Shown piece by piece: positions 10,386-32,985 of a DNA stretch of 32,985 nucleotides. The notes below the pieces were generated by a model, which worked only from the letters and a program-made list of their open reading frames with translations, did not search any database and was not told the origin of the DNA. Numbering within the stretch: the stretch's first letter is position 1; each line of letters starts with the position of its first letter. A program made the translations under genes and the position numbers. Source of the stretch: Oscillatoriales cyanobacterium CG2_30_44_21 (GTDB lineage Bacteria; Cyanobacteriota; Cyanobacteriia; Pseudanabaenales; Pseudanabaenaceae); the NCBI GenBank assembly GCA_001873375.1, contig MNZA01000167.1, positions 1 through 32,985 on the forward strand, in the 5' to 3' direction.

Positions 10386-10410
10386 TTAGGCGGCGCTTCG
10401 CGCCGCCTAA
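10386..10410. repeat. GC-rich hairpin core, 11-bp arms
   Basis: TTAGGCGGCGC-TTC-GCGCCGCCTAA is a perfect 11-bp stem with a triloop. It abuts the family B element that follows and lies between the divergent metH and ABC exporter genes. Confidence 0.85.
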
Positions 10411-10512
10411 TACCAAGTAAAGAAATGGCGGAGCCATTTCTTTACTTGAAAACCCATACTGGATTTGGTTTTCAATTTGCAAAAGTGTGATTACAGTTTT
10501 GTGAATTGGTAT
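10410..10512 (+). repeat. Family B element, best-preserved copy
   Basis: The ends ATACCAA (10410-10416) and TTGGTAT (10506-10512) are inverted. Within are a perfect 16-bp hairpin (arms 10414-10429 and 10433-10448, loop GGA) and a conserved segment AAAACCCATACTGG followed by TTTGGTTTTC, which can itself fold. It lies directly upstream of the ABC exporter start and may supply its leader. Confidence 0.75.
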
Positions 10513-17275: not shown

Positions 17276-18535
17276 ATGAACTCCTCAACTGCATCCAAGG
17301 CAAACTTCAAAAACTATGTGCTTGTCACCCTCACCTATTGGGGGTTTACAATTACCGATGGTGCTTTGCGACTATTGGTACTGCTCTATTTCAACAATAT
17401 TGGCTATACTCCCATTCAAATCGCTTCACTATTTTTATTTTATGAAGTATTTGGAGTCGTTACCAACTTCTTAGGCGGCTGGATTGGATCACAATTAGGA
17501 CTGAAAGTTACGCTCTATACAGGGATTGGCTTACAGATATTTTCGTTGGTAATGTTATCCTTCCTTAATCCTGAATGGGCGCAGTGGTTGGCAGTTCTCT
17601 ATGTGATGATTGCTCAGGCTTTTTCAGGAGTTGCCAAAGACTTGACGAAGATGAGTACCAAAAGCGCGATTCGCCTAGTCGTGCCGCAGGATGCTCAATC
17701 GGCTTTGTTCAAATGGGTTGCCATTCTCACGGGTTCCAAAAATGCCTTGAAAGGTGTAGGCTTTTTTATCGGTAGTGCCTTATTAGGATTAGTAGGTTTT
17801 ATCAATTCTCTCTGGATTATGGCGGGATGCTTATTTTTGCTGCTATTCACAGGTTTATTTTTACCAAAGGGCATGGGCAAAATCAAAGCAAAAGTCAAAT
17901 TCAAACAACTCTTTTCTAAAAGCCCTGAAATCAATCTTCTATCCGCCGCAAGATTCTTTCTATTTGGCTCCAGAGATGTTTGGTTTGTGGTGGGATTGCC
18001 TGTATTTTTGCGGAGTGTTTTAGGCTGGTCATTCTCTCAAGTGGGTGGCTTCTTAGCCTGTTGGGTAATTGGCTATGGTTTGATTCAATCCCTTGCACCG
18101 ACATTGATCAAGCGCTTTGGTTCTGGACAACCACCGCGATCGCAAACCGTGCGATTTTGGACAAATTCTCTAGTTGCAGTTCCTGCGATAATTGCGATCT
18201 CTTTACAATTAAATCTCCCTGCAAACATAGTGATCATCGGCGGCTTACTAATTTTTGGTGTCGTGTTTGCCTTCAATTCATCGGTACATTCCTATCTAGT
18301 CCTCGCTTTTACTGACGATGACAAAGTGGCTCTAAATGTCGGCTTCTATTACATGGCAAATTCGGGCGGACGTTTAGCAGGGACAGTTCTCTCTGGTTTG
18401 ATTTATGAATTTTATGGATTAATTGGCTGTCTATGGGTATCCGCAATCATGGTTTTAGCGGCGGCGGTGATTACGCGCAAGTTACCTGATCCTGAGCCGA
18501 GTAAGGCGATCGCATGGAAATCTGATGGTGAATAG
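17276..18535 (+). CDS. arsJ: Organoarsenical efflux MFS transporter ArsJ
   Basis: 419 residues from the ATG at 17276. The frame is open from 17087, but the extra 63 codons are the 3' end of gap3 and the repeat, so the later ATG is chosen; the protein then begins MNSSTASKANFKNYVLVTLT. It has about 11-12 hydrophobic segments. The blocks YWGFTITDGALRLLVLLYF, SGVAKDLTKMSTKSAIR and TGSKNALKGVGFFIG are those of ArsJ. The protein sits in the inner membrane and exports 1-arseno-3-phosphoglycerate, which falls apart outside to arsenate and 3-phosphoglycerate. Together with the GAPDH it forms an arsenate-resistance pathway that needs no reduction to arsenite. Confidence 0.93.
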   Translation: MNSSTASKANFKNYVLVTLTYWGFTITDGALRLLVLLYFNNIGYTPIQIASLFLFYEVFGVVTNFLGGWIGSQLGLKVTLYTGIGLQIFSLVMLSFLNPEWAQWLAVLYVMIAQAFSGVAKDLTKMSTKSAIRLVVPQDAQSALFKWVAILTGSKNALKGVGFFIGSALLGLVGFINSLWIMAGCLFLLLFTGLFLPKGMGKIKAKVKFKQLFSKSPEINLLSAARFFLFGSRDVWFVVGLPVFLRSVLGWSFSQVGGFLACWVIGYGLIQSLAPTLIKRFGSGQPPRSQTVRFWTNSLVAVPAIIAISLQLNLPANIVIIGGLLIFGVVFAFNSSVHSYLVLAFTDDDKVALNVGFYYMANSGGRLAGTVLSGLIYEFYGLIGCLWVSAIMVLAAAVITRKLPDPEPSKAIAWKSDGE

Positions 18536-18607
18536 GCGATCGCTTATCCCTGCGCTTTGGTGATTATCGGTAAATGTTGGAGGTTAAGGGCAGAGCGTTA
18601 CCAATTT
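18536..18607 (+). repeat. 72-bp direct repeat, left copy
   Basis: Starts GCGATCGCTTATCCCTGCG and ends GGGCAGAGCGTTACCAATTT. It matches 19836-19907 over the same 72-base length with scattered differences, and the part ending GGTAAATG matches 19797-19835. Copies bracket the toxin-antitoxin-like genes. Confidence 0.8.
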
Positions 18608-18731
18608 GAGGCGATCGCGCCATCAGTCCCTTGTGGGGCAATTCCTCCAGAGTGAAGCTGAATGTCTTGATTTAAGGTAACGGAATCAAACATTTGAAAC
18701 TTACTTATCTTTAATCTTCACTGCTGCAATT

Positions 18732-19775: not shown

Positions 19776-19796
19776 TTTTTAAGTTTTGTATTTGTT

Positions 19797-19907
19797 GATC
19801 GCTTATCCTTTCGGTTTGGTGATTATCGGTAAATGGCGATCACTTATCCCTGCGGTTTGGGGATTTTTGCTGATTTGCGGAGGTTTAGGGCAGAGCATTA
19901 CCGATTT
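19797..19907 (+). repeat. 72-bp direct repeat, right copies (one and a half)
   Basis: 19797-19835 repeats the first half of the unit (GATCGCTTATCC ... TTATCGGTAAATG). 19836-19907 repeats all 72 bases of 18536-18607 with scattered changes. So the right side holds a partial and a full copy in tandem. Confidence 0.8.
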
Positions 19908-19957
19908 AAAAGGATCTTAAAATTTATAAATTGTGGCGGTAATGCTCTGCCCCTAAC
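19884..19957. repeat. Inverted repeat at the 3' end of the kinase gene
   Basis: TTAGGGCAGAGCATTACCG (inside the right direct repeat) is complementary to CGGTAATGCTCTGCCCCTAA (19937-19956) with a single bulged base, across an AT-rich 34-base loop. The second arm contains the kinase stop codon. It may terminate the kinase transcript. Confidence 0.65.
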
Positions 19958-23744: not shown

Positions 23745-23751
23745 TTAGCTT

Positions 23752-23830
23752 ACAGCGCATTGCGCTCAAACCCGAACCAAGAATAATTTTGAAAGCGTTG
23801 CTTTGCAAAGCTTTCAAAATTACTCTTGGT
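23752..23830 (-). repeat. Family A element, reverse orientation
   Basis: The tail ACAGCGCATTGCGCTCAAACCC is read in reverse, then a long stem: arms from ACCAAGAATAATTTTGAAAG (23776 on) to CTTTCAAAATTACTCTTGGT (ending 23830), with two mismatches and a TTGC-TTT-GCAA tip. It lies just past the stop of the 501-residue protein gene and may terminate it. Confidence 0.8.
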
Positions 23831-23836
23831 AATAGC

Positions 23837-25342
23837 CTATGGGAACCAACGGGGTGATGTTCCGAAAATTGGCAGCAGTTCAGGCTGAGGCAAAAAGTTA
23901 CTTTTTTCATTACTCTGTTCATTGTTGATGGGAAGAACCACCAATTGAGTTAGGGCTTGAGGCGATCGCGAAGTTCGTGAACCCTGTGCCGAGTCTTCAG
24001 GAATAGAAGGATTGGAAATCGGAGCAGCATTGGGAACGGCGGAGTTAAGTAAAATTGATTGTCCATCAGGAGCGATTTTAAATTGAACTTCTCGCTGGGG
24101 CGGCAACTCCAAAAGTCTTTGCAATTGCGCTGATTCTAAGTTAATTTCTGCAAGATAAGGCTTTTCAAGAAATATATTTTTGGCTGTATCCTGCTCAACA
24201 TCCGTTAACAGACAATAGAGATTTTTCTCTTGCGGATCAAACTGAGCGCCCAAAATGGAACCATTGATTTTGGTGAGTTCTTTTTGTAAACCTTGATTGT
24301 TCACAAGATAGAGCGATCGCGTGTAGTCTTTATTGAATTTAATCGTGGCTGCCTTCGTACCGCTGCGACCGAAGCTCAAGACTGTGCCGAACCTTGGCAA
24401 AAAATCTAGGGGCGCAGCTTGAGATTCGAGGGGCAGAATTGCCACGCCTTCGCCTTGGGCGATCGCCACCGAAGAACTGTCAGGAGTAAACATGAAGTCT
24501 CCCCCTGGCTGATTTTCTAAAGGCTTAGGTGAGTTGTTTTCTGAAATTAACCAAAGCCCGTATAGCCCAACCTGCTTACGACTGAGGCGCTGCACTAAGA
24601 TATTCTTTCCATCGGGTGAAAGGTCAAATTTAAAGTTTTGAAACTCTTCATTGCCAAGTATAGTTTGCAACTGGGGAGCCTTGCTGAGTTTATCCTCTGC
24701 GTCAATTCCTGTAGTGACGGTATAAATTTTCTGATCGATCAAGCTCTGCTCACCCGTTTTAATGGCTCCAAATAAAATCTTCTGGCGATCAGGATAAATG
24801 CGAAAATCTAAAACCTTCAATTCGGCAGGGGTTAAAATCTTCTTCTCTTTTCGTTGGGGGGCATAAATAATCAACCGTCCCTGTTCTTCAGCCTGTGCGC
24901 CGATGTAAGCAAGGTAAGGATTGGGCGTAGAGAAATTTCCCACAAAAGGCGCAATTGATTTCTTTTTGCTGATTTCACTAGAAAAGCGATCGTATGCGTC
25001 CGCTAGCTTAACGGTATAAGATTTACCATAAATTGCTGGAACTAGAGGTGTGTAAGACATTCGCCGCGATGACCAACTGATTTTGCCTGCGAGGGGTGGT
25101 TCAATCTGGAGATTTTTTTCCACACTGTCGCGATCCATCGGACGACTGAAGGTTAGCGCAAAAGATATATTAGTAGCATCAATTTTTTGTCCCTGCCAGC
25201 TAAAATCGCGCACCTGTGGCAAAGTGCGATCGCCTGACCACAAAAGTACCGCAATCATCACGCTCAATATAGCAATTACACCAATGGCAAAGCGATCAAT
25301 GGGTTGGGCAAATAATTTAGAGCGAGGGCTAGATTGCATCAC
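23837..25342 (-). CDS. Membrane-anchored Big_5 / beta-propeller-like protein
   Basis: 501 residues. One membrane helix (about 18-36, FAIGVIAILSVMIAVLLWS) follows a short basic cytoplasmic tail, so the rest faces the periplasm or lumen. Residues 50-140 look like a Big_5 (SbsA Ig-like) domain: ISFALTFSRPMDRDSVEKNL, with the typical YTPLVPAIYGKSYTVKL end. From about 145 there are repeated strands of a TolB/WD40-like propeller (for example FKFDLSPDGKNILVQRLS, GGDFMFTPDSSSVAIAQGEG and VQFKIAPDGQSILLNS). The C-terminal 60 residues are P/S/N-rich and low in structure. Function is unknown; a scaffold or sensor of the cell envelope is a guess. The start is the ATG at 25342 (MMQSS). Confidence 0.75.
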   Translation of the reverse strand: MMQSSPRSKLFAQPIDRFAIGVIAILSVMIAVLLWSGDRTLPQVRDFSWQGQKIDATNISFALTFSRPMDRDSVEKNLQIEPPLAGKISWSSRRMSYTPLVPAIYGKSYTVKLADAYDRFSSEISKKKSIAPFVGNFSTPNPYLAYIGAQAEEQGRLIIYAPQRKEKKILTPAELKVLDFRIYPDRQKILFGAIKTGEQSLIDQKIYTVTTGIDAEDKLSKAPQLQTILGNEEFQNFKFDLSPDGKNILVQRLSRKQVGLYGLWLISENNSPKPLENQPGGDFMFTPDSSSVAIAQGEGVAILPLESQAAPLDFLPRFGTVLSFGRSGTKAATIKFNKDYTRSLYLVNNQGLQKELTKINGSILGAQFDPQEKNLYCLLTDVEQDTAKNIFLEKPYLAEINLESAQLQRLLELPPQREVQFKIAPDGQSILLNSAVPNAAPISNPSIPEDSAQGSRTSRSPQALTQLVVLPINNEQSNEKSNFLPQPELLPIFGTSPRWFP

Positions 25343-27066: not shown

Positions 27067-27085
27067 GGCGGCGCGAAGCTCCGCC
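27067..27085. repeat. Decayed GC hairpin core
   Basis: GGCGGCGC-GAA-GCTCCGCC pairs with one mismatch. It resembles the tip of the other hairpins but lacks long arms. Confidence 0.5.
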
Positions 27086-27092
27086 TTGTGAT

Positions 27093-27176
27093 AAAAACCA
27101 GAGAAATTTGAGAAAGCGGCGATCCGCGCCGCTTTCTCAAATTTCTCTGGTTTTTAATCAAGCCTAAAGCGCTGTA
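27093..27176 (+). repeat. Family A element, 28-bp perfect arms
   Basis: Arms 27093-27120 and 27128-27155 pair perfectly, starting AAAAACCAGAGAAATTTG; the tail AATCAAGCCTAAAGCGCTGTA ends 26 bases before the glycosyltransferase ATG. It is the longest perfect stem in the window and would lie in that gene's leader or promoter. Confidence 0.88.
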
Positions 27177-28344: not shown

Positions 28345-28842
28345 TTATTCAGCCATACTCAGGTTTACAGTAATTGTCAACTTCAAAGATGAGTCAGTAT
28401 TAGAGTCATGGATTTGCTGTAAATAGCGATCGCCAATTGGCTCAGTCAAGACTCTAGACAACAATTGCAACAACCGAGAAGCACCATTACTAATCTCTTG
28501 ACTAAAGGATTCAGTACCAGACAAATTTATAGGTGCGGAAATTCCTGTAATCATTGGAGAATTGTTAGCAGGAATATTACCAGTAACTGCCCGATTGTTG
28601 TAACGGCGCAAGACTACTTGCAAATTATTTTTAGTCACGCGATCGCTAAAGGCATCTGACAGTAACTGCCATAGTTTGTAACCAACATCACGGATGTAAG
28701 CAGCATCATAGCCAGCCTTTTCAGCAATCTCTGAATAGGTCTTACCTTCCCAAGTTTGGCGAAAGATCGCCTCTTGAATTGTACTAAGGCTCTTATTTCC
28801 CAAAACAGAATCCACGATATTGAGTGCGTCTTCAATAGTCAT
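28345..28842 (-). CDS. Orphan protein with VMAP-type N-terminal helix-turn-helix
   Basis: 165 residues from the ATG at 28842; a GTG four codons earlier also opens the frame, but GAGGAA lies 5 bases before this ATG. Residues 1-75 (MTIEDALNIVDSVLGNKSLS, then FRQTWEGKTYSEIAEKAGYD, then YIRDVGYKLWQLLSDAF) match the N-terminal HTH that cyanobacteria attach to large NTPase, TIR, WD40 or vWA-MoxR-associated conflict proteins. Here the effector part is absent; residues 85-165 are N/S-rich, have one amphipathic helix (GASRLLQLLSRVLTEP) and end in a strand (LKLTITVNL). It may be a stand-alone regulator or the remnant of a larger protein; no frameshifted remainder is visible downstream. Confidence 0.7.
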   Translation of the reverse strand: MTIEDALNIVDSVLGNKSLSTIQEAIFRQTWEGKTYSEIAEKAGYDAAYIRDVGYKLWQLLSDAFSDRVTKNNLQVVLRRYNNRAVTGNIPANNSPMITGISAPINLSGTESFSQEISNGASRLLQLLSRVLTEPIGDRYLQQIHDSNTDSSLKLTITVNLSMAE

Positions 28843-29355
28843 TTTCTTCCTCACAGTTCCCTAATTGTTTATATGTAGATCTAGATTTTTTTTCTAGAAT
28901 ATTTGGCAAGTCAAAATGTTCTAATAGCTCTAATAATTTTGTTTATCTCAGCAAACTAATAGTTTGTACTCAACACAAGAGATAAAAACCTTACAATTTA
29001 AAAATCATAGCCATAATTAGACTTGCTTAAAAGTTTTAGAAAAAATCTAAAATCAATACAGACAACAACATAAAAAGTAGAATGTTTTGTATGTTGTTTC
29101 CGCAAGCACAGCTAAGTTAGCACAGTTTATTTAAAATGATCATTTAAGATAATTGTATAGATGTAAACTCCAAAAACATTTAATAGCAAGGTTTTCGAGC
29201 TTTTTTGATTATTTTATATACAGTTCAAACTTGTTTTTAACGATAGAAACACCGATGTTTTATGACATCAATGCAGACATTAACTAGCAAATTATAGAAA
29301 CGGAAAAAGTCTGATATTTTTTTCTAGCATTTTACGACAAATCAATAAAAAAGCA
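28843..29355. other. AT-rich gene-free stretch
   Basis: No ORF with recognisable coding character on either strand. It is markedly AT-rich compared with its neighbours. The only structure found is an inverted repeat, AACAACAT (29064-29071) with ATGTTGTT (29091-29098), about 220 bases upstream of the HTH gene. It may hold a long 5' leader or the remains of a lost gene. Confidence 0.5.
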
Positions 29356-29541
29356 GTTACAGCGCTCTGCGCTAGCTTAAAACCCATAGAAAATTGTAAA
29401 AGCGCCGCTTTTATAATTTTCTATGTACCCCTTAAAGCCTATTGAGGCTATGAGTAGTACAGAGAAATATTTGAAAGCACGGCGGAGCCGTGCTTTCAAA
29501 TATTTCTCTGGGTTTTTCAATTAAGCGCAGAGCGCTGTAAC
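29356..29541. mobile_element. 186-bp composite of two facing family A copies with 18-bp terminal inverted repeats
   Basis: It begins GTTACAGCGCTCTGCGCT (29356-29373) and ends with its exact complement AGCGCAGAGCGCTGTAAC (29524-29541). Inside are a reverse copy with a 19-bp stem (29385-29403 with 29407-29425, one G-T pair), a central AAAGCCTATTGAGGCT, and a forward copy with a perfect 24-bp stem (29460-29483 with 29487-29510). GCA flanks both ends, a possible 3-bp target duplication. It encodes no protein; a MITE-like, non-autonomous element is the natural reading. Confidence 0.7.
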
Positions 29542-29582
29542 GCACCCTACAGGACTGAAATAGGGTCAGGCAATCTGGATTT

Positions 29583-30674: not shown

Positions 30675-30725
30675 AGCGTTTAATTGTAAAGCAGCTTGTT
30701 GAAGCCGCGCTTTTAAAAATGTAGT

Positions 30726-30806
30726 CGAGAGAGATTTTGAGAAGGGTTGCTCCGCAACCCTTCTCAAAATCTCTCTCGGTTTTAATTAAGCGCCAAGCGC
30801 TGTAAT
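30726..30806 (+). repeat. Family A element, 25-bp perfect arms, in divergent promoter region
   Basis: Arms 30726-30750 and 30754-30778 (CGAGAGAGATTTTGAG..., loop TCC) pair perfectly. The tail GGTTTTAATTAAGCGCCAAG and GCGCTGTAA ends just 3-4 bases before the cobD ATG. Confidence 0.88.
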
Positions 30807-30809
30807 TCC

Positions 30810-31793
30810 ATGCAAATCGAATTTGTCAATATAGATATCCTGATTTTAGTTCTGGCTGCCACCATCGACTATGTAATCGGTGATCCTGTGGAGTGGCTGC
30901 ATCCTGTGCAAGTCATGGGCTGGTTGATTTCTGGATATGTAAACTTAGTCACTGATCAACTTGTCGCCAGATTTTCGCCCCAAATCATGAAGATGCTGGG
31001 TGTGATTTTGGGAATGACGATGATCGGGGGGAGTGGCGCGATCGCTTGGTTAATCGTAATTACGGCGGCTAAGTTCAATCTTGTTTTGGCGATCGCCATT
31101 TCCAGTATTTTGCTAGCAGCTTGTTTTGCGGGGCGCAGTCTCAGGGACGCGGCTGAGTCGGTACTAAAAGTTTTGGCAACAGGCAATCTCGAAGCGGCTA
31201 GGCAAGAATTAAGCCGCTATGTGGGGCGAGATACTGACGATCTCGATGAGGTGGAGATTCTCCGTGCAGTTTTAGAAACTGTCACTGAAAATTCGATCGA
31301 TGGTGTTACTTCTCCATTGTTTTATGCCTTGGTCGGTACGGCTCTGTTTGACTTTGGCGGTGTAGCCCTGGCGATCGCGTACAAAGCAGCCAGCACCCTT
31401 GACTCAATGGTGGGCTACCATGAAGCGCCCTATACAGATTTGGGTTGGTTTAGCGCGAAGACCGATGATGTCTTGACTTGGTTGCCCTGTCGCTTGACGG
31501 TGCTGACTTTGGCGCTAGTTTCGAGGAAGTCAATCTATGTATGGAAAATTTGCGATCGCGATGCGAGGCAAGATCCTAGTCCTAACTCCGGGTGGAGTGA
31601 ATGTGTATATGCCGCGATTTTACAAGTGCAACTGGGCGGCGACAATCGTTATCGCGGATTTGTCAAGTCAAAGCCACTCTTAGGGGATGCGATTCAGGCG
31701 ATCACCCCTCTAAAAATAATTCAAGCGCTGCAACTAACTCGAATTTGTTTTTTAATTTGGTTAGGCTTAGCGATTACAGCGCTTTGCGCTTAA
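30810..31793 (+). CDS. cobD: Adenosylcobinamide-phosphate synthase (CobD/CbiB)
   Basis: 327 residues, a normal length, with several membrane helices. Family blocks are all present: DYVIGDPVEWLHPVQVMG (about 20-37), the loop ARQELSRYVGRDT, TENSIDGVTSPLFYALVG, and STLDSMVGYHEAPYTDLGWF. The enzyme joins the aminopropanol(-phosphate) arm to adenosylcobyric acid in the inner membrane, late in corrinoid synthesis. Cyanobacteria usually make pseudocobalamin by this route, which feeds MetH. The start codon lies only 3-4 bases after a family A tail. The last residues, ITALCA, and the TAA are read from a second, reverse tail, so the protein's C-terminus comes from the repeat. Confidence 0.95.
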   Translation: MQIEFVNIDILILVLAATIDYVIGDPVEWLHPVQVMGWLISGYVNLVTDQLVARFSPQIMKMLGVILGMTMIGGSGAIAWLIVITAAKFNLVLAIAISSILLAACFAGRSLRDAAESVLKVLATGNLEAARQELSRYVGRDTDDLDEVEILRAVLETVTENSIDGVTSPLFYALVGTALFDFGGVALAIAYKAASTLDSMVGYHEAPYTDLGWFSAKTDDVLTWLPCRLTVLTLALVSRKSIYVWKICDRDARQDPSPNSGWSECVYAAILQVQLGGDNRYRGFVKSKPLLGDAIQAITPLKIIQALQLTRICFLIWLGLAITALCA

Positions 31794-32695: not shown

Positions 32696-32717
32696 AGCAT
32701 CTTATGTGTATCTAAAT

Positions 32718-32820
32718 ATTATTGAGGCTTTGATTATTCCAGAGAAACTCTTGTGCATCGCGGCGGAGCCGCGATGCACAAGAGTTTCTCTGGATTTTAA
32801 ATAAGCTCAAAGCGCTGTAT
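32718..32820 (+). repeat. Family A element, near full length, 27-bp perfect arms
   Basis: It has the 5' block ATTATTGAGGCTTTGAT, then arms 32738-32764 and 32768-32794 (TCCAGAGAAACTCTTGTG..., loop GGA), then the tail ATTTTAAATAAGCTCAAAGC and GCTGTA. With the copy at 29434-29541 it shows the whole element: leader hairpin, long stem, tail. Confidence 0.9.
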
Positions 32821-32873
32821 TACGAGTCTGATTATATATCAAGCACTATAAACCTGAATAGCGATGCTCAACT

Positions 32874-32937
32874 AATACCCAACAAAAAAATGGCGTAGCC
32901 ATTTTTTTGTTGGAAAACCCATACTAGGTTTGCTTCT
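32874..32937 (+). repeat. Family B element, third copy
   Basis: AATACCC, then a perfect 16-bp hairpin (arms 32879-32894 and 32898-32913, loop GTA), then GAAAACCCATACTAGG. The stem CCAACAAAAAAATGGC differs from the copy at 10414 at several positions, each compensated on the other arm. The right end is not recognisable before the window ends. Confidence 0.75.
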
Positions 32938-32985
32938 CAACTCACAAAAACTATATTCATACTACTAAAAACCAATAAGCGAGTG

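Follow-up and report, generated by a model that had tools for sequence, protein, structure and literature searches.

The window, which is the whole stretch of DNA analyzed here (32,985 nucleotides), belongs to a 3.5-Mb draft genome of Pseudanabaena. An inverted pair of hairpin-bearing repeats, 186 bp in all, lies at positions 29356 to 29541. Nearby are cobD/cbiB (30810-31793) and a gene with no Pfam match (28345-28854). The roughly 230 bp at 29111-29342, upstream of the latter gene, appear to be noncoding and are approximately 75% to 91% conserved in some 18 genomes of the genus, and the adjoining intergenic DNA is not conserved; this stretch may function as a long leader or in regulation. A different interspersed family of hairpins (around CTAATACC...AAATGGCGNAGCCATTT...) has three copies in the window, at 835-912, 10407-10484 and 32872-32949. 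At 18535-18616 and 19794-19916 are 82-nucleotide direct repeats that contain embedded copies and are not related to the tails of the pair described below.

The outermost 18 bp of the pair are exact inverted copies, with GTTACAGCGCTCTGCGCT at 29356-29373 and its perfect reverse complement at 29524-29541, and GCA is present on both flanks, precisely as described in the original prediction that the pair is a MITE-like unit. The DNA of the pair can fold along nearly its whole length (-71 kcal/mol, z -16). Each half belongs to one repeat family, here called family A, whose units have a palindromic tail at one end and a different sequence, the head, at the other (Table 1). A covariance model was made from 19 single units, including the right unit of the pair and excluding the left. 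On the plus strand it matches the left unit with 81.6 bits at 29358-29452, and on the minus strand it matches the right unit over all 105 model positions (1-105) with 115.1 bits. The right unit has one change among its last bases, CTT for CTG, and the loop of the hairpin that the two units share is oriented as in the right unit.

Table 1. Coordinates of family A features in the window
Feature	Coordinates	Strand	Remarks
Left unit, subfamily A2: tail + CTTAAAACCC + hairpin + TGTACCCCT head	29358..29449	+	Without the outermost head bases
Right unit, full-length, subfamily A1: tail + TTAATT + hairpin + TGTACTACTCA head	29433..29539	-	
Tail end of left unit: CAGCGC-TCT-GCGCT after the TA target copy	29358..29373	+	
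Tail end of right unit	29524..29539	-	TA target copy is 29538-29539
Central hairpin of left unit, 18-bp arms	29385..29425		
Central hairpin of right unit, 24-bp perfect arms, 3-nucleotide loop	29460..29510		
Fusion point: single head hairpin AGCC-TATTGA-GGCT common to both units	29436..29449		From overlap of the model matches and comparison with single-unit ends
GCA left flank, no target duplication	29353..29355	+	Empty sites of the family give TA
GCA right flank, no target duplication	29542..29544	+	Empty sites of the family give TA
Further single unit	32713..32819	-	98.3 bits, covariance model
Further single unit, diverged	30700..30804	-	77.3 bits, covariance model
Further single unit, diverged	27079..27176	-	78.4 bits, covariance model

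Family A units are short, gene-free, strongly folded and present in high copy number. When they are aligned on their tails, each consists of the tail, a linker, a long hairpin and a second end, AAAGCCTCAATAGGCTGTA. A unit runs from TA-CAGCGCTTTGCGCT... to ...GCCTCAATAGGCTG-TA, the head end reading AAAGCCTCAATAGGCTG-TA, or CAGCCTATTGAGGCT in reverse orientation, and the modal length is 105 bp when both TA copies are counted. In the consensus fold, 14 of the 24 stem pairs are changed on both sides in some copy with pairing kept (alignment A1). Arms that change and yet stay complementary could reflect structural selection or templated copying between the arms. A search of Rfam gave no family at the gathering threshold.

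Each of the 25 Pseudanabaena genomes searched contains single units. At E <= 1e-4 the model has at least 149 matches in the window's genome and from 36 to at least 149 in each of the 25, although weaker matches may stem from related hairpin families and these copy numbers are lower bounds or depend on the model. A genus-wide search of the same 25 genomes with 29350-29545 returned the whole pair solely in the window, among the matches listed. The remaining listed matches each cover one unit, either the right (query positions about 83-191), which matches single units in most genomes of the genus, or the left (about 9-91), which matches single units such as G022:C3:141846-141927 and G000:C27:1345-1429.

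One family A tail, at 31773-31793, overlaps the 3' end of cobD/cbiB and provides its last codons and stop codon. Relative G024 is similar only as far as 31774, immediately ahead of the unit, and in relative G010 the similarity continues into the unit. The arrangement suggests that the C-terminus of the protein may have been rewritten by insertion.

The tail motif occurs far more often than expected by chance. With up to three mismatches allowed, it is found at 344 places in the 3.5-Mb genome (159 forward and 185 reverse), and the reversed control pattern is found at two (one forward and one reverse). That two tails should pair is unremarkable: from 159 plus 185 tails in 3.5 Mb, arithmetic gives about 1.7 expected facing pairs within 200 bp. 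A 314-kb sample picked around tails contains 17 facing, 17 same-strand and 12 back-to-back pairs within 2 kb, six of the 17 facing pairs each being one palindromic tail that was counted once per strand. Facing pairs, which had been put forward as a signature for finding further elements, are no commoner in this sample than same-strand or back-to-back pairs, and we rejected them as a general type of element. Neither a transposase gene nor a full-length element carrying one, as the original prediction anticipated, was seen between two tails. Tails almost never recur as closely spaced paired ends: one other close pair (less than 200 bp apart) is present in the sample, a perfect tail-tail palindrome at G000:C175:21206-21474 whose flanks are the same sequence inverted and also match contig C177. 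This pair (L050) is probably an assembly fold-back at the hairpin, and it was left out of the evidence. The match between the two tails of the window's pair, which extends to their variable trinucleotides, had been read as a sign that the tail is a recognized end. TCT loops like theirs are indeed uncommon, occurring in 5 of 94 tails. Otherwise the match is mostly family consensus, and GT preceding TACAG is the commonest tail context (30 of 94).

Matched empty sites are available for 11 single-unit insertions. Nine are orthologous (three for units of the window's genome and six for units of sister species), and two lie within paralogous repeats. For the units of the window's genome, the joined flanks were searched across the genus and then aligned to G010. 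The insertion at L056:6302 is clean, GT-TA[CAG...CTG]TA-TAGCAATTG corresponding to an empty GT-TA-TAGCAATTG in G010. The left junction is also exact at L048:6905, where the right TA has decayed to AA, and at L042:1340, where the right flank is divergent. Among sister-species units, TA is present at both ends in all 20 that were fetched. Five of their orthologous empty sites contain a single TA (L177, L178 with three empty genomes, L187, L182 and L179), and a sixth reads TC instead of TA (L176). The two remaining units (L175 and L174) lie within repeats that have uninterrupted copies, in which one flank continues into the other across a single TA. Overall, one side differs from TA in two of the 11 comparisons (L048 and L176). 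These comparisons show that family A units insert singly into TA and duplicate it, and they uphold the proposal that the tail is the end of something mobile, including the clean insertion expected of it. They place the target duplication elsewhere than proposed, however: it is TA, hidden inside the 18-bp repeat, and GCA, which the empty sites never show, flanks the pair by chance. The ISY100 element of Synechocystis, a member of the IS630 family, inserts almost exclusively at TA and duplicates it, and TA duplication is a trait of IS630/Tc1-mariner transposons (PMC2170065).

The head end points to the same transposon family. Several IS630-type (DDE_3) fragments in the window's genome have the end TGTACCCCTTAATCCCTCAATAGGCTG-TA, which is close to the family A head. 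A full-length IS630 relative in Pseudanabaena sp. UBA1465 (L118) measures 1033 bp with its TAs and encodes one 315-amino-acid transposase (NF033545, 178.8 bits with a cut-off of 100; DDE_3, 108.3 bits). Genome G002, also of a sister species, has more than 20 similar IS630 copies, and its full-length 1032-bp element L121 has a transposase split over two reading frames. The A1 head matches the two ends of L121 at 23 and 22 of 27 positions, and the A2 head matches those of another element, L119, at 24 and 25 of 27. The best scores against the terminal repeats of this lineage, IS-A, are 23/27 for A1 and 25/27 for A2, and none of 2,000 shuffles was as good. In the window's draft genome, which breaks at repeats, the IS630-A copies stop at contig ends, and none that is intact was seen. 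IS630-family transposases are most likely the movers of family A, which would be mobilized in trans by cut and paste. The earlier suggestion that the mover is encoded elsewhere is probably right in this respect. A second IS630-type element is represented in the same genome by virtually identical fragments at six contig ends (L079-L084, on contigs C73, C76, C121, C128, C217 and C233). The ends of this group (...CTAGCTACTTA) are unrelated to those of family A, and the fragments are probably recent copies that were collapsed in assembly.

The family A tail is like the IS-A terminal repeat in CAGC only (10 to 13 of 27 positions, p 0.085-0.52), which leaves the IS630-A transposase no more than a candidate for binding it, and the genus's IS630 elements with readable ends bear IS-A or IS-B repeats and no tails. 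IS-B is a second IS630 lineage (L106; 1063 bp; NF033545, 102.7 bits). Another set of units, family B, has the same tail as family A and a different head, CAGCAATTACCAATCAAACGAACC. This head matches IS-B at 19 of 24 positions; the family B tail matches it at 16 of 24 (p 0.002, one among many comparisons). Family B-like hairpin units with this tail are present at 23751-23841 of the window, at L043:16782 and at L024, and their head, where complete, matches IS-B (L106). As a lead only, the shared tail may descend from an end of the IS-B type. It is possible, although we hold the idea tentatively, that Pseudanabaena has several MITE families with one palindromic tail (CAGCGC-nnn-GCGCT) and heads from different IS630 lineages, IS-A for family A and IS-B for family B. 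In that case the two ends of family A would come from separate transposon lineages, making it a hybrid whose mover would tolerate mismatched ends.

The pair probably formed when two units came to lie head to head on one TA, ...AAAGCCTCAATAGGCTG-TA-CAGCCTATTGAGGCT..., making a long palindrome. Long palindromes are prone to deletion. Loss of the 18 bp between the AGCC repeats would leave a single head hairpin in common and a tail facing outward on each side. The window's genome includes two precedents for abutting units: at L052 the terminal TA of one unit is shared with the tail of the next, and at L085 a family A unit interrupts an IS630 head end at the TA of CCTCAATA, and the remainder of that end is still readable. 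The latter case, in which the unit is nested at CCTCAA-TA, also lends itself to a different route. The left unit would have received the right one within its head, at the TA of either CCTCAATA or CCCCTTAAAGCC, and would have lost the remainder of that head. The left junction of the pair, CCCCT-TA-AAGCC, agrees with such an insertion, but no clear remainder of the left head is present to the right of 29539 (TAACGCACCC...). Fusion by insertion is a possible route, and the less likely of the two.

Whichever way the head-to-head units were joined, their history has to be weighed against readings in which the inverted pair itself is the element. A 186-bp MITE that transposes as one unit and duplicates 3 bp would account for the perfect 18-bp ends, for the GCA on either side and for the competent-looking tails at both outer ends. 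However, its two halves come from different subfamilies and occur singly many times, no second copy of the pair is found in the 25 genomes among the matches listed, and units of about 105 bp insert alone, with CAGCCTATTGAGGCT... and not a second tail as the other end. These facts, together with the TA empty sites, make a transposing 186-bp unit very unlikely. Two inverted, hairpin-bearing repeats in high copy number also recall REPINs, in which paired inverted REP sequences are moved by a RAYT (Y1) transposase and which have been reported from Nostoc punctiforme (PMC3116915). Yet a search for Y1_Tnp (PF01797) that finds this domain in control genomes gave no matches in the window's genome. Moreover, the unit that is repeated and inserted is a single one and not an inverted pair, and the TA duplication is that of IS630/Tc1-mariner elements (PMC2170065). 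A REPIN at this locus is exceedingly improbable.

We therefore have high confidence in the explanation that the 186-bp element consists of two independent noncoding units of about 105 bp, one from A2 and one from A1, arranged head to head and belonging to a MITE family of the IS630/Tc1-mariner type. The pair has no readable empty site of its own because the neighboring genes are not syntenic in relatives: neither G010 nor G024 has the flanking genes next to each other, and the intergenic DNA there is unrelated. Movement of the pair as a unit is now probably rare or absent.

A defined family whose ends and target are known takes the place of what appeared to be a new 186-bp element, and this family accounts for many of the intergenic hairpin repeats across the genus. 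The pair also illustrates how two units joined to run from tail to tail may be mistaken for a MITE with long terminal repeats. Family A is a testable system: its two ends are unlike, there is a candidate transposase, and many of its insertions have readable empty sites.

RUP elements duplicate a TA target, and family A is like RUP in its size, lack of a gene, folded structure, high copy number and IS630-like end. As far as the consulted parts of the RUP literature describe it, RUP of Streptococcus pneumoniae is a MITE related to IS630-Spn1, gene-free, tightly folded, 107 bp long and present in more than 100 copies, with ends like those of the resident IS630, and repeats of this type cluster and insert into one another (PMC3049150). 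In the same account, RUP has terminal inverted repeats, whereas family A combines an IS630-like head with a dissimilar tail. Unlike RUP, family A also has a small palindrome as its tail and a central hairpin with covarying arms. With IS630/Tc1-mariner elements of the ISY100 type, family A shares the TA target, the TA duplication and the outer CAG...CTG, and its head matches IS630 terminal repeats; unlike IS630, it is gene-free and one of its ends is not an IS-A repeat. Nezha, a cyanobacterial MITE for which ISNpu3-like elements are the proposed movers (cited in PMC3049150), is comparable, on the strength of that brief description, as a cyanobacterial MITE with a proposed IS helper. REPINs and REP sequences with their RAYTs resemble family A in having inverted palindromic repeats in high copy number, but family A differs from them in its TA duplication, its single inserted unit and a host genome that lacks matches to the Y1 transposase.
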